Source: Rhabdaerophilum calidifontis (GTDB lineage Bacteria; Pseudomonadota; Alphaproteobacteria; Rhizobiales; Beijerinckiaceae). Taken from it: a DNA stretch of 64,000 nt. Positions 22,687 through 28,009 of this stretch are shown in pieces (the stretch's first letter is position 1; each line of letters starts with the position of its first letter). Under the pieces are notes generated by a model that did not search any database, was not told where the DNA came from, and saw only the letters and a program-made list of their open reading frames with translations. Location of the stretch: NCBI RefSeq assembly GCF_008641065.1, contig NZ_VTRS01000002.1, positions 186,001 through 250,000 on the forward strand, in the 5' to 3' direction. The translations under genes were made by a program, and so were the position numbers.

Positions 22687-24927
22687 GTGCTGAGGATCGC
22701 CGCAACGTTCGCCTTGCTTGTTGCTTGTGCGATTTTCATGGTTGCGCTGGGCGATGCCGGTGCGATCCCCGATGTTCTGGGCAAGCTCTCGCCCGGCATC
22801 GCCCTTCTCGCCTTTCTCTTTCTGGTCCTCAACGCGCTCGCGGCCTCGTTCCGGCTCCAGATCATCGCCCGCGAATATGGCTGCCGGCTCTCGTTCCGCC
22901 AGGCGATGGCGGCGGTCGGCGGCGGCAGCATCGGCGGGGCGCTGTTCTTCCAGCTCGCGGGGCAATTGTTCGCGCAGAGCGCGATCCTGGCGCGGAGCGG
23001 CGTCTCGGCGGCGACGACCGTGCTCGTCACCGGCCACGAGCGGCTGGTTGCGGCCGCGATCTCGGGCATCCTCGCGCTCGGCGGCGCCTATCTGATCTAT
23101 GGCCGCATCGCGATCCGCGCCGAGGCCGGCGGGCTGGAATTCGCGAAGATCGTCGCGGGGCTGGCGCTCGCGGCCGCGGCCGCGGCGGTGATCGGCTATC
23201 CGGACCTGTTCCAGGATGCCCGGCGCGCCCTGAAGGGGCGGAATGTCGCCGGCGCCCTCCTCATCTCGGCATTGTCGAGCCTGATCGTTCAGCTGCCGAT
23301 GATGGCGGCCTATGCGGTGCTGATCCGGTTCTTCGTGCCGGCGGTGCCGATGGCCGATCTCCTCGCCGCCACGGCGATCATCATGTTCGCGGCGAGCGTG
23401 CCGATCAGCTTCGCGGGCTGGGGCGTGCGCGAGATGAGCGCGCTGCTCGCGCTTGGCGTCATCGGGGTGGAGCCGGGCGTGGCGCTTGTGACGGCCGTGT
23501 TCGTGGGCGCCGGTTCCCTTGCCGCGATGATGCTGATCACGCTGCTCGCGCTGTCCGAGCGGCGCATGCCGCCCACGGCGGATGCCAGCGATGTCGCCGA
23601 TCCGGCGCGGGCCCGGCTTGATTCCGTGCTAACGGCGGGCATTCCGCTGCTGATCGCGACGCTGATCCCGTTCCAGCTCTTCCTGCCCACCGCCGGCGGG
23701 CTCGTGAATGTCAACCTGGCCGATCCGTTCGCGCTGCTCGCCGCCGCCTGGACGATCCTGCTGCTCCAGCGCGCGGGGCGGGTGCGCGCGGCGCTGAGGA
23801 GCCCCGTGGGGCTGGCGCTTGCGGCGATGACGCTCGCGCTGACGCTGTCGCTGCTGATCGGGGCCGCCATGTTCGGCTGGACGAACTGGGCGACGACCAA
23901 TCGCTATTTCGGCTGGTTCGTGCTGCTCGGCTATTTCGCCGCCGGCGGGCTGCTGGTCCGGCAAGCCGGGCTTGCCGGCCTGCGCATGGTCGGCCTCGCG
24001 CTGGCCGGCGCCGTGACGGCGATCGCCGTGATGGAACTCTCCCTCCTCTCGCTGGTGGCGGCGGGGCTCAAGGTGCCGGAGGTGCTGCTGACGAATCCGA
24101 TCGCCGGCTTCGCCCAGAACCGGAACGCCTTCGCGCTGCAATTGCTGACGGCGGCGGCGCTGACCGCCGCCCTAGCGCCGGCGGGGCGCGGGCGGCTGGC
24201 GATGCTCGCGATCCAATGCGTCTGCCTCGTGGCGACCGGTTCCCGCGCCGGCTGGGGGGCCGGGCTGGTGCTGCTCGCGGCGATGATCCTCCTCGGCCGT
24301 CTGCGGGCGCCGGATGCGGCGAAGCTCGCCGGTGCCTGCCTGCTGGTGGTCGGCGCGCTGGCTTTGCCGGCCGGTTTGGTGTTCCTCCTCGAAGCCGTGA
24401 TTCCGCAAGCCCTGCGCGCTCTCGGCCTCGATCCCGTGGGTCCGTCCTCGCTCGGCAATACGCGCCAGATGGCGGGCATCAGTATCGTGCCCAATCCATC
24501 GACCAATGCCGAACGTTTCCACAGCATCGAGACCGGGCTCGCCATGTTCCGGGATGCGCCGTTGTTCGGCGCCGGGCTGGGGGCCTTCGTCCGGCAGGAA
24601 CTCGCCGCGAGCGGCCGTTTCCTGGTCATCCATTCGACACCGGTCTGGCTGCTCGCGGAATTGGGGCTGGCCGGTTTCCTCGCCTTCGCCGCCCCGCTGC
24701 TCGCCCTTGTCGGGAGGGCGCTGCGGCCCGCCCGGCGCGGGGATGCCGCGGCCCAGCTTGTCCTGTTCCTGCTTCTGGTCTTCGGAACCATGGCGCTCGT
24801 CCATGACATGCTCTACCAGCGCATCCTCTGGTTCGCGCTGGGCGGCGGGGTGGCGGCGCTGCTCGCTTCCGGCCGGAACGGGGCGGCGGAGAATTGCGCC
24901 GGCGGCGGAAATCTGCTTCCTCCATGA
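22687..24927 (+). CDS. Flippase-like (LPG-synthase TM) domain fused to O-antigen ligase
   Basis: A 746-residue polytopic membrane protein with two parts. The first 300 or so residues resemble the lysylphosphatidylglycerol-synthase transmembrane family (flippase-like), with segments FRLQIIAREYG, TTVLVTGHERL and ISFAGWGVREMSALLALG. The rest (about residue 320 to the end) is a WaaL/Wzy-type O-antigen ligase with TGSRAGWGAG, a conserved arginine R610 in AERFHSIETGL and the likely catalytic H649 in HSTPVWLLAELGLAG. The ligase half would attach a lipid-linked glycan to another acceptor in the periplasm. The start is uncertain: GTG at 22687 gives a hydrophobic N-terminus, but its ribosome site is weak. 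tRNA-Arg and glycosyltransferase genes follow. I do not recall this fusion being described. Confidence 0.8.
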   Translation: MLRIAATFALLVACAIFMVALGDAGAIPDVLGKLSPGIALLAFLFLVLNALAASFRLQIIAREYGCRLSFRQAMAAVGGGSIGGALFFQLAGQLFAQSAILARSGVSAATTVLVTGHERLVAAAISGILALGGAYLIYGRIAIRAEAGGLEFAKIVAGLALAAAAAAVIGYPDLFQDARRALKGRNVAGALLISALSSLIVQLPMMAAYAVLIRFFVPAVPMADLLAATAIIMFAASVPISFAGWGVREMSALLALGVIGVEPGVALVTAVFVGAGSLAAMMLITLLALSERRMPPTADASDVADPARARLDSVLTAGIPLLIATLIPFQLFLPTAGGLVNVNLADPFALLAAAWTILLLQRAGRVRAALRSPVGLALAAMTLALTLSLLIGAAMFGWTNWATTNRYFGWFVLLGYFAAGGLLVRQAGLAGLRMVGLALAGAVTAIAVMELSLLSLVAAGLKVPEVLLTNPIAGFAQNRNAFALQLLTAAALTAALAPAGRGRLAMLAIQCVCLVATGSRAGWGAGLVLLAAMILLGRLRAPDAAKLAGACLLVVGALALPAGLVFLLEAVIPQALRALGLDPVGPSSLGNTRQMAGISIVPNPSTNAERFHSIETGLAMFRDAPLFGAGLGAFVRQELAASGRFLVIHSTPVWLLAELGLAGFLAFAAPLLALVGRALRPARRGDAAAQLVLFLLLVFGTMALVHDMLYQRILWFALGGGVAALLASGRNGAAENCAGGGNLLPP

Positions 24928-25143: not shown

Positions 25144-26889
25144 ATGCGATATGCCAAGGCCACGCTTCTCAACCAGGATTGGCGCGGCGTGTTCCTCGCG
25201 CTGACGCGCAGCCATCTGCGCGCGATCCTCGCGCTTGCGCTCATCTCCTTCTGCCTGTTCGCGCCGGGGCAGATCAGCCTTCAGCCGATGGACCGTGACG
25301 AGCCGCGCTTCGCGCAGGCGACGAAGCAGATGCTGGAGACGGGGGATTTCGTCGATATCCGCTTCCAGGACGAGGCCCGCCACAAGAAGCCGGTTGGGAT
25401 CTACTGGCTTCAGGCGGCCGCGGTCTCGGCCGGCGAGGCGCTGGGGATCGACGGTGCGCGGACGACGATCGCGCTCTACCGCCTGCCATCGCTGATCGGC
25501 GCGATCGCCATGGTTTTGCTGACCTATTGGGCGGCGCTCGCCTTCCTTTCGCGCGAGGGGGCGCTGCTCGCGGCCCTGATCATGGCCGGCTCGGTGCTGC
25601 TCGGGGTCGAGGCGCGGCTCGCCAAGACCGATGCCGTGCTCGGCGCGCTCTCGGTCGCGGCCTTCGGCTTCCTCGCCCGTGCCTATCTCGCTGCGCGCGC
25701 GCCGGGCATCGCGCCGGCACCGGCTTCCGCGCACCACACCGCCTTCTGGCTGGTGATCGGTGCCGCGGTGCTGATCAAGGGTCCAATCACGCCGCTGATC
25801 GTGGGGCTGGCCCTGGCCGTTCTTGCGGTGCGGGACCGGGATCTTGGCTGGTTCCGGGCCATGCGGCCGTGGCGGGGGCTCGCGCTCGTCGCACTCGTCG
25901 TGCTGCCCTGGCTCGTGCTGATCCTCTACAAGGCCGGCTGGAGCTTCATCGCCGATTCGGTCGGCCGGGACATGCTGGCCAAGGTCGGCGGCGCGCAGGA
26001 GAAGCATGGCGCGCCGCCCGGCACCTATCTCGGCGTCTTCTGGCTCACCTTCTGGCCGGCGGCGCCGCTGGCGCTGCTCGCCGCACCCTTCGCCTTCCGC
26101 GAGCGGCGCGATGACGGCGTCGCCCTGCTCCTCGCCTGGATCGTGCCGTTCTGGCTGATCCTCGAGGCGGTGCCGACGAAGCTGCCGCATTACGTGCTGC
26201 CGCTCTATCCGGCGCTGGCGATCCTGATCATGCTCGCCGCCGAGCGCGCCGGGCTGATGCGGTCGTGCTGGGCGCTGGCGCTTGCGGCCGGGCTGATGGC
26301 GCTGGTGCCGCTGGTCTTCCTCGTCGGGGCGCCGGCCCTGTTCCTGATCCTCGAGGAAGGGCAGCCGCTGTTCCGTCTGCCCTTCCTGGCGCTGCCCTTC
26401 CTGGTGATCGCAGCCTGTCTCGGCCTGCTCGCGGCATTGACGATCCTGCGCGAGGCGCGGCCGGTGCGCGGGCTGGTGCTGGGGCTCTGCGCGTCGGCCG
26501 CCCTGGTGGTTGCGGCCTATCCGTTCGGCTTGCCCGCTCTCAAGGCGCTCAATCTCTCGCCGCGCCTTGCCGAGGCGGCGCGGGCGACGGGCTGCGTCGA
26601 TCCCGAATTCCTGACCGTCGGCTATCGCGAGCCGAGCCTCGTTTTCCTGACCGCGACCGGCCTGCGCATGCCGAACGCCGCCGAGGCGGCCGCGCTGATG
26701 GACCGCGACGGCGACGGCTGCCGGATCGCCTTCATCGAGCAGGCGCATGAGGAGGCGTTCCGCGCGGCGCTGCAGGGCCGCGCCGCGCCGGCGCTGGTGA
26801 CGCGGGTGCGCGGCGTCAACATCAACGCCGCGCTCGACAAGAGCCGCCGGTTGCGCGTGCTCGATATTGGCGTCTATGTGCGCCGCTGA
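25144..26889 (+). CDS. ArnT-like lipid A glycosyltransferase (GT83/GT39-type membrane enzyme)
   Basis: A 581-residue integral membrane glycosyltransferase that uses a polyprenyl-phosphate sugar. The first periplasmic loop carries the acidic motif MDRDEPRFAQATKQML and the stretch HKKPVGIYWLQAA, both typical of ArnT and its relatives; the aspartate-glutamate pair is the catalytic site. About ten to twelve membrane segments follow, then a C-terminal periplasmic domain. The ATG at 25144 gives a short cytoplasmic tail before the first helix. It is the first of three close genes (17-nt gap, then 1-nt overlap) that look like a lipid A decoration operon similar to the rhizobial rgtD/rgtE/rgtF set. 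Whether the sugar is galacturonate, aminoarabinose or another is not known. Confidence 0.85.
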   Translation: MRYAKATLLNQDWRGVFLALTRSHLRAILALALISFCLFAPGQISLQPMDRDEPRFAQATKQMLETGDFVDIRFQDEARHKKPVGIYWLQAAAVSAGEALGIDGARTTIALYRLPSLIGAIAMVLLTYWAALAFLSREGALLAALIMAGSVLLGVEARLAKTDAVLGALSVAAFGFLARAYLAARAPGIAPAPASAHHTAFWLVIGAAVLIKGPITPLIVGLALAVLAVRDRDLGWFRAMRPWRGLALVALVVLPWLVLILYKAGWSFIADSVGRDMLAKVGGAQEKHGAPPGTYLGVFWLTFWPAAPLALLAAPFAFRERRDDGVALLLAWIVPFWLILEAVPTKLPHYVLPLYPALAILIMLAAERAGLMRSCWALALAAGLMALVPLVFLVGAPALFLILEEGQPLFRLPFLALPFLVIAACLGLLAALTILREARPVRGLVLGLCASAALVVAAYPFGLPALKALNLSPRLAEAARATGCVDPEFLTVGYREPSLVFLTATGLRMPNAAEAAALMDRDGDGCRIAFIEQAHEEAFRAALQGRAAPALVTRVRGVNINAALDKSRRLRVLDIGVYVRR

Positions 26890-26906
26890 ACGGAACCGGA
26901 GCGCCC

Positions 26907-27662
26907 ATGGCAGAACAATCCGAGACGCCGCACGAGAGCGGGCCCCCGCGCGTCTCCGTCGTCGTGCCGATGCGCAACGAGCAGGGCAATGTCGCCCCGC
27001 TCGTCGCCGAGATCGCGGCCGTGCTCGACGGGCGCGAAGCCTACGAGCTGATCGTCGTCGATGACGGCTCGACCGACGAGACCGCCACGATCCTCGCCAA
27101 TCTCCGCGCGACCTATCCCGCCCTGCGCGTTCTGCGCCATGCCGCGAGCGGCGGCCAATCGGCCGCGATTCGCGCCGGCGTCTATGCCGCGCGCGGCGGG
27201 GAGATCGTGACGCTCGACGGCGACGGCCAGAACAACCCCGCCTTCATTCCCCTTCTCCTTCAAACGCTGCGCGGCGATCCGGCGATCGGCCTTGTCCAGG
27301 GTCAGCGCATCGGGCGCAAGGATACGGCGTTCAAGCGCTGGCAATCGCGCATGGCGAACCGGATCCGCGGTGCGATCCTCAAGGACGGCACCCGCGACAC
27401 CGGCTGCGGGCTGAAGGCCTTCCCGCGCGCGGTCTATCTCCGGCTGCCCTATTTCGATGCCATCCACCGCTTCATGCCGGCGCTGGTGCGGCGGGAAGGG
27501 GGCGTGGTGGCGCTGGTCGATGTGGTGGACCGGCCGCGCGGGTCGGGCCGCTCGAATTACGGGTTCTGGGGGCGGCTCGGGATCGGCATTCTCGACCTTG
27601 CCGGCGTGTGGTGGCTCATCCGGCGCAAGCGCCCCACCCCTGGCGTCACGGAGATCGCCTGA
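26907..27662 (+). CDS. GT2 polyprenyl-phosphate glycosyltransferase (DPM1/ArnC/RgtE type)
   Basis: A 251-residue inverting GT-A enzyme that loads a nucleotide sugar onto a polyprenyl phosphate on the cytoplasmic face. Motifs are VVVPMRNEQGNV at the start of the fold, the nucleotide-binding IVVDDGSTDET, the metal-binding TLDGDGQNNP, DTGCGLKAF, and the arginine-rich RPRGSGRSNYG near the end. One hydrophobic segment at the C-terminus (residues 220-240) would tether it to the membrane. Its product would be the donor for the ArnT-like enzyme encoded upstream. The stop codon overlaps the next start (TGATG), which implies coupled translation. Confidence 0.92.
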   Translation: MAEQSETPHESGPPRVSVVVPMRNEQGNVAPLVAEIAAVLDGREAYELIVVDDGSTDETATILANLRATYPALRVLRHAASGGQSAAIRAGVYAARGGEIVTLDGDGQNNPAFIPLLLQTLRGDPAIGLVQGQRIGRKDTAFKRWQSRMANRIRGAILKDGTRDTGCGLKAFPRAVYLRLPYFDAIHRFMPALVRREGGVVALVDVVDRPRGSGRSNYGFWGRLGIGILDLAGVWWLIRRKRPTPGVTEIA

Positions 27663-28009
27663 TGCTGATCCAGCTGTCGCAGGGGCTCAATTCCTTCCTC
27701 CACGAAGTGTTCATCAGCAATTTCACCTGGTGGGCGGCGATGGGCGTGTTCGGGCAATTGCTGTTCGCGGCGCGCTTCATCGTGCAATGGATCGCGAGCG
27801 AGCGCGCGGGGCGCTCGGTCGTGCCGCTCGCCTTCTGGTTCTTCTCGATCGGCGGCGCCGCGATCGTGCTCGCCTACGGCATCCACAAGCGCGACCCCGT
27901 GATCATTCTCGGGCAGGCCTTGTCCTTCTTCATCTATTTCCGCAATCTCGCACTGATCGCGAAGGAGCGGCGCGAGCGCGGCAGGGTCGCGGTCGAGGGC
28001 GATTCCTGA
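27662..28009 (+). CDS. Small LpxB N-terminal-domain membrane protein (LAB_N family)
   Basis: A 115-residue membrane protein with three or four helices belonging to the family named after the N-terminal domain of some lipid A disaccharide synthases. Motifs include WAAMGVFGQLLFAARFIVQW, SVVPLAFWFFSIGG and FIYFRNLALI. It has no catalytic part of LpxB. Family members often accompany polyprenyl-phosphate glycosyltransferases; here it may help to flip or hold the lipid-linked sugar, comparable to the third gene of the rhizobial rgt operon. It overlaps the GT2 stop codon by one base and ends the operon, convergent with metC. Confidence 0.85.
   Translation: MLIQLSQGLNSFLHEVFISNFTWWAAMGVFGQLLFAARFIVQWIASERAGRSVVPLAFWFFSIGGAAIVLAYGIHKRDPVIILGQALSFFIYFRNLALIAKERRERGRVAVEGDS

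Follow-up and report, generated by a model that had tools for sequence, protein, structure and literature searches.

Studies of how lipid-linked glycans cross the inner membrane and reach their transferase usually deal with Wzx, Wzy and WaaL as separate proteins, and family PF04932 spans LPS ligase, Wzy polymerase and protein O-oligosaccharyltransferase activities. WaaL-type enzymes take diphospholipid-linked sugars, according to PMC10920833, which also describes the CAZy GT121 (O-Lig) family. UPF0104 domains, in turn, are lipid translocases, either predicted or shown, as stated in excerpts of PMC5898192 and PMC11980842. Other excerpts report that mutations of conserved residues in the flippase domain of S. 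aureus stop flipping (PMC6299216), that the gate of R. tropici MprF is a Glu280-Arg304 pair (PMC8131360), and that P. aeruginosa MprF scrambles many lipids, a PEGylated one included, without an energy source (PMC11980842). In a passage of the same paper, Hankins et al. 2025 (PMC11980842) mention frequent fusions of MprF-type transport domains with O-antigen ligases and refer for this to a preprint by Hauser et al. 2022 whose title, as given there, names the UPF0104-type domain PplT.

The window, a stretch of 64,000 nucleotides of Rhabdaerophilum calidifontis DNA, encodes a protein that is another member of this already described, functionally untried domain pairing. The sequence-only reading of the window did not know the combination of a flippase-like half and an O-antigen ligase half from described ligases, and the suggestion of an undescribed pairing is not supported in view of the passage in PMC11980842; as the architecture is already in print, the surprise is limited. 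The features of the gene, all given in window coordinates, are the following.

22687..24927, + strand: whole fused gene, 746 aa, GTG start from alignment
22708..23535, + strand: N half, LPG_synthase_TM / UPF0104 domain, residues 8-283 (PF03706; MprF fold Z 21.6)
22975..22977, + strand: Gln97, Gln in the window copy, Arg in 53/55 fused N halves, gap in one
23401..23433, + strand: PISFAGWGVRE motif, residues 239-249, its Glu aligned with the MprF gate-motif Glu in a weak profile alignment
23554..23601, + strand: linker between the halves in the AlphaFold2 model, residues 290-305, of near-constant length in relatives
23611..24879, + strand: C half, complete WaaL-type domain, residues 309-731 (WaaL fold 7tpg_B, Z 24.3)
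24202..24690, + strand: Wzy_C (O-antigen ligase) profile match, residues 506-668 (PF04932)
24244..24246, + strand: conserved Arg520, Arg in 50/56 fused C halves
24514..24516, + strand: conserved Arg610, Arg in 50/56 fused C halves, His in 5, gap in 1
24631..24633, + strand: conserved His649, the expected ligase histidine, His in 54/56 fused C halves

The gene is a single open frame with zero internal stops, and the earlier claim that neither a stop nor a frameshift lies between the halves was borne out; its GTG first codon was inferred from the alignment and is not proven. A frame error joining two genes was ruled out by the coding-type codon-position G+C that holds across the N half, the linker and the C half, by the spacing from G274 to D346 over the junction (70-81 residues in 45/45 aligned fused rows), and by the relatives, because 55 nonredundant fused rows span many genera. 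A plasmid-borne gene was considered and rejected, as none of the plasmid records matched.

A domain search of the full chain, as proposed with the sequence-only reading, placed both expected families over their curated cut-offs: LPG_synthase_TM covers residues 8-283 (E 1.4e-13, 51.4 bits versus 33.4) and Wzy_C covers residues 506-668 (E 5.6e-12, 46.1 bits versus 31.7), with no Pfam family beyond these two at E 10 or better. NCBIfam returned TIGR00374 alone, a flippase-like family, below its cut-off. The AlphaFold2 model, built from a 45-row alignment (A2), has a mean pLDDT of 87.0 and a pTM of 0.87; Foldseek against the PDB ranked WaaL 7tpg_B first (E 2.3e-5), followed by MprF chains (E 0.017 to 0.12). 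VIA-align superposed model residues 22-353 on MprF 6lvf_A over 232 residues (Z 21.6, rmsd 2.8), and six MprF entries match the N half at Z 17.8-21.6. When only the N half was compared by sequence with the PDB, nothing came up at E 10 or better, so that the link to MprF rests on the fold and on Pfam. The first half is thus LPG-synthase-TM-like, as had been proposed, and the profile and fold searches ruled out that it is an ordinary part of the ligase family.

Within the N half, a glycine-containing hairpin motif ending in Glu is strictly kept, with P239, G244, G246, R248 and E249 each present in 55/55 fused N halves, and R56 and E118 are each kept in 54/55. Glu249 aligns with the equivalent of Glu280 of the MprF gate in a global hhalign comparison that set five MprF rows against the fused N halves (probability 22, E 1.9e-4), an alignment that is weak and was therefore used solely for placing the motif Glu; the Arg partner of the gate is absent from the window protein. 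The absence of this arginine, together with Gln97 at a position that is nearly always Arg, would suit an N half that has lost lipid transport and serves as membrane scaffold or regulator only. We regard this as very improbable, since the motif residues and R56, kept across the fused N halves, point to a continued function of the family. The flippase half of the window copy, with its Gln97, may nevertheless differ in function from its relatives. Position 93 is Gln in 51/55 fused N halves versus Gly in 48/56 single and 12/13 split ones, which may hint at a change of substrate in the fused clade.

As for the C half, model residues 309-731 match WaaL 7tpg_B over 324 residues of its 403-residue chain (Z 24.3, rmsd 4.0); RodA/FtsW, of related fold, come after WaaL and MprF at Z 11-13, and all others are at 6.1 or lower. 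Because the ligase half begins near residue 309, both domains are complete. Profile and fold agree with the earlier description of this half as WaaL/Wzy-like, and R610 and H649 were found where that description had them; they lie in the large periplasmic loop and would be the catalytic ligase residues. Four of the five fused C halves with His610 are named as, or group with, Afipia-like genomes.

The only PDB sequence match at E 1 or better is 9rmk_A, an oligosaccharyltransferase chain (E 2.4e-7 versus the C half), and sequence thus leaves the choice between LPS ligase and protein transferase undecided. As to extra domains of the PglL/PglS type beside Wzy_C, Pfam gave none at E 10 or better, but the sequence match to 9rmk_A stands next to this result. 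Both this match and the breadth of PF04932, which includes all three activities, would be in line with a C half that acts as Wzy polymerase or protein O-oligosaccharyltransferase, so that the fusion would couple flipping to polymerization or to protein glycosylation. This alternative seems unlikely to us: the nearest listed fold is WaaL, the chain stops right after its last helix and Pfam gives nothing beyond the two families down to E 10, and separate Wzy_C genes stand in polysaccharide clusters both at another fused locus (L057) and in the genome of the window.

That genome has three Wzy_C genes, namely, the fusion and one gene each at L177 and L178. The former site (L177, 263-7800) is an O-antigen-like cluster with Polysacc_synt_2, Glycos_transf_4 (WecA-type), Wzy_C and GDP-mannose dehydratase genes, and no Wzx-type gene was noticed in the 12 kb read; at the latter, the Wzy_C gene sits among glycosyltransferases and a Wzz gene. 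These two could be polymerases and, as they lie in polysaccharide clusters, the fusion is a reasonable candidate for the role of O-antigen ligase in its own genome. The window gene itself is flanked by an NDUS4 gene before it and a tRNA-Arg after it. Past the tRNA, window positions 25144-28009 hold a series of three genes (PMT-type transferase, GT2 glycosyltransferase and LAB_N), likely a set for the glycosylation of lipid or lipid A.

The survey of the architecture across genomes, another check suggested at the outset, showed that the fusion recurs in many alphaproteobacterial genera and also, beyond the class, in some other genomes, with 55 fused rows left once repeats were taken out. In four samples, each of which contained the genome of the window, the full fused gene occurs in 6/397 genomes of the family, 7/397 of the order, 10/385 of the class and 4/398 of the phylum; all matches, including those to one half only, split genes and broken frames, number 8, 26, 28 and 10, respectively, and two of the phylum sample, G1300 and G1369, are not members of the class. 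None of 16 congeners matched (0/16). A scan of named genomes kept 80 loci, which were pooled with the earlier ones and freed of repeats to give the 44 fused rows that, with the window copy, form alignment A2. Among the carriers with a name are Bradyrhizobium, Afipia, Chelatococcus, Thalassospira, Filomicrobium, Ferrovibrio, Blastochloris and Agaricicola. In its grouping, the window copy joins those of Hyphomicrobiales, Pseudolabrys and Pseudorhodoplanes rather than clustering with Chelatococcus of its own family group (name inferred), which suggests that transfer or loss took part in its history. In metagenome bins, the fused copies L017 (1336-3605) and L082 (1-2986) have a frame interrupted by a stop or shift, which may reflect either decay or assembly error.

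Trees of the two halves, which are quick, unrooted and made without bootstrap, were compared. In the N-half tree (124 rows), a branch (support 98) separates 55/55 fused copies and the split copy L153 from the other 12 split and 56 single ones; in the C-half tree (78 rows), a branch (support 99) sets the 56 fused copies, L153, L007 and a piece of L082 apart. The window copy is found in corresponding groups of 8 and 20 rows in the two trees. The simplest account would be one fusion event, joint inheritance thereafter, and one later split that gave L153, the sister of the fused L152. The pairing of a flippase-type with a ligase-type domain is genuine, old and conserved.

At 13 loci the two halves exist as adjoining genes on the same strand, with the N-half gene first. 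Adjoining flippase-type and ligase-type genes were seen at L072, L078, L081, L083-L087 and others, from Micavibrio-like and other alphaproteobacterial bins. The equivalent of H649 is Asp in 9/13 split pairs, which makes a different reaction possible; these nine C halves may not be WaaL-type ligases. A further arrangement joins flippase-type, ligase-type and GT4-type glycosyltransferase domains in one frame, in two genomes of one genus (G877 and G1148).

L127, 1480-4845, + strand: triple fusion, 1122 aa
L128, 373-3717, - strand: triple fusion, 1115 aa

Pfam finds PF03706 and a glycosyltransferase in both. Wzy_C is below its cut-off in L127 and missing at E 1e-5 in L128, and the C-half profile built here matches both. 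G877, a genome with the triple fusion, also carries a second, divergent fused copy (L148, 1459-3690). Our literature search, with most subscription papers and all bioRxiv preprints lying outside it, turned up no description of the split genes, of the triple form or of any function, and no activity reported for any fused member.

The neighborhoods of the fused copies were scanned with Pfam locus by locus for 20 proteins, the 2 triple fusions and 18 neighbors picked by hand and thus nonrandom, so that the scans give the existence of contexts and not their frequency. L057 has a Wzy_C gene and a heptosyltransferase (PF01075) directly upstream and a GT4 gene downstream, L049 adjoins Polysacc_synt_2 and GT4 genes, L071 and L079 adjoin Polysacc_synt_2 genes, and L056 and L082 adjoin asparagine synthase genes. 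The neighbor of L061 is a nucleotide-sugar dehydrogenase, that of L073 a C-methyltransferase, and those of L052 are PMT_2 and also GT87. Among the examined neighbors of L059, L068, L070, L078 and L086, there are no sugar genes but housekeeping or unrelated ones. Sugar genes therefore adjoin some fused copies, not all. A wider tally, based on home-made gene calling, comprised 266 neighbors of at least 150 aa located at most 3.5 kb away, of which 139 were chosen and 125 scanned with Pfam; the top family appeared in only 6/125 scanned proteins, so that no general context for the fusion stood out.

The reading that we prefer, with a probability of about one half, assigns to the N half the passage of a lipid-linked glycan or its carrier over the inner membrane and to the C half the transfer of the glycan, the two steps being coupled by the fusion. 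The protein would sit in the inner membrane as a UPF0104/MprF-type translocase domain joined to a complete WaaL-type glycan transferase. The putative substrate of the N half, either the lipid-linked glycan or the lipid carrier left after ligation, would cross the membrane, and the C half, acting as ligase rather than polymerase, would attach the glycan, on the periplasmic side, to an acceptor that is probably lipid A-core; being fused would hold transport and transfer at one place. The adjacent-gene versions, the triple fusion and some of the neighborhoods are compatible with an N half that feeds the ligase. Counted against this explanation are the position of the window copy between NDUS4 and tRNA-Arg, the Wzx-type matches elsewhere, the Asp in split pairs, the absence of the MprF gate arginine and of YRxxY, Q97, the match of the C half to 9rmk_A, and the several copies without sugar-gene neighbors.

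The Wzx-type matches bear on what the N half would carry. PF01943 has a match in 20/23 searched fusion genomes, over the cut-off in 19/23, and none in three, so that the N half is generally not the sole glycan flippase there. In the genome of the window, there is one borderline PF01943 match (28.3 bits; 26.2 for the trimmed frame versus a cut-off of 28.2), and this site is also the only place where Polysacc_synt_3 exceeds its cut-off; besides the fusion, the genome has two UPF0104 matches, a solitary gene on contig C14 and a weak match on C11. Donor flipping may come from the Wzx-type proteins, and MprF-type domains are promiscuous (PMC11980842, in excerpts); the N half could then be a general scramblase of phospholipid or carrier, for example for the return of undecaprenyl phosphate (Und-P) after ligation, or a mover of the lipid acceptor, and not a carrier of the donor. 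We hold this as a tentative and rather improbable alternative, as the triple fusion with a cytoplasmic-type glycosyltransferase suits a sugar-bearing lipid better.

A bolder form of the preferred reading is a self-contained flip-and-ligate protein, in which the N half would replace Wzx for a short Und-PP-linked glycan and hand it over directly to the ligase half. This is quite unlikely in our judgment, with pointers in the O-antigen-like cluster without a noticed Wzx-type gene, the borderline PF01943 match, the 3/23 genomes without PF01943, and Gln93. If true, it would be a surface-glycan route independent of Wzx and of ABC exporters; in the triple form, the third domain would also add a sugar. 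More generally, one natural chain with both steps, accompanied by split and triple relatives, offers a test of glycolipid movement by MprF-type domains and of coupling, and glycolipid transport, if true, would hand the large UPF0104 group a substrate class.

In comparison with known systems, the N half has the fold of the first transmembrane subdomain of MprF (Z 21.6), and both proteins combine an enzyme with a lipid transport domain in one chain. In contrast to MprF, the window protein lacks the second transmembrane subdomain, the PF09924 synthase and YRxxY, and the partner is a glycan transferase. PF09924 (aminoacyl-PG synthase) is not found in the window protein at E 10 or better, nor anywhere in its genome, and the YRxxY motif, located in TM8 of MprF according to excerpts of PMC8131360, is absent from the N half; on these two grounds, MprF proper was ruled out. 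The C half resembles WaaL in PF04932, in the fold shared over 324 residues and in the conserved Arg and His, whereas the 403 residues of 7tpg_B have no flippase-type domain ahead. WadA of Brucella, as presented in PMC9938171, is likewise bifunctional, contains an O-antigen ligase domain and belongs to Rhizobiales, but its N-terminal domain is a cytoplasmic glycosyltransferase, whereas that of the window protein is PF03706. AglD of Haloferax also has a UPF0104 domain fused to a glycan-pathway enzyme, although there the partner is a cytoplasmic glycosyltransferase and the UPF0104 domain is C-terminal (PMC5898192, in excerpts). The PplT-type/O-antigen ligase fusions of Hauser et al. 2022, as described in the citing sentence of PMC11980842, have the same domain pair as the window protein.
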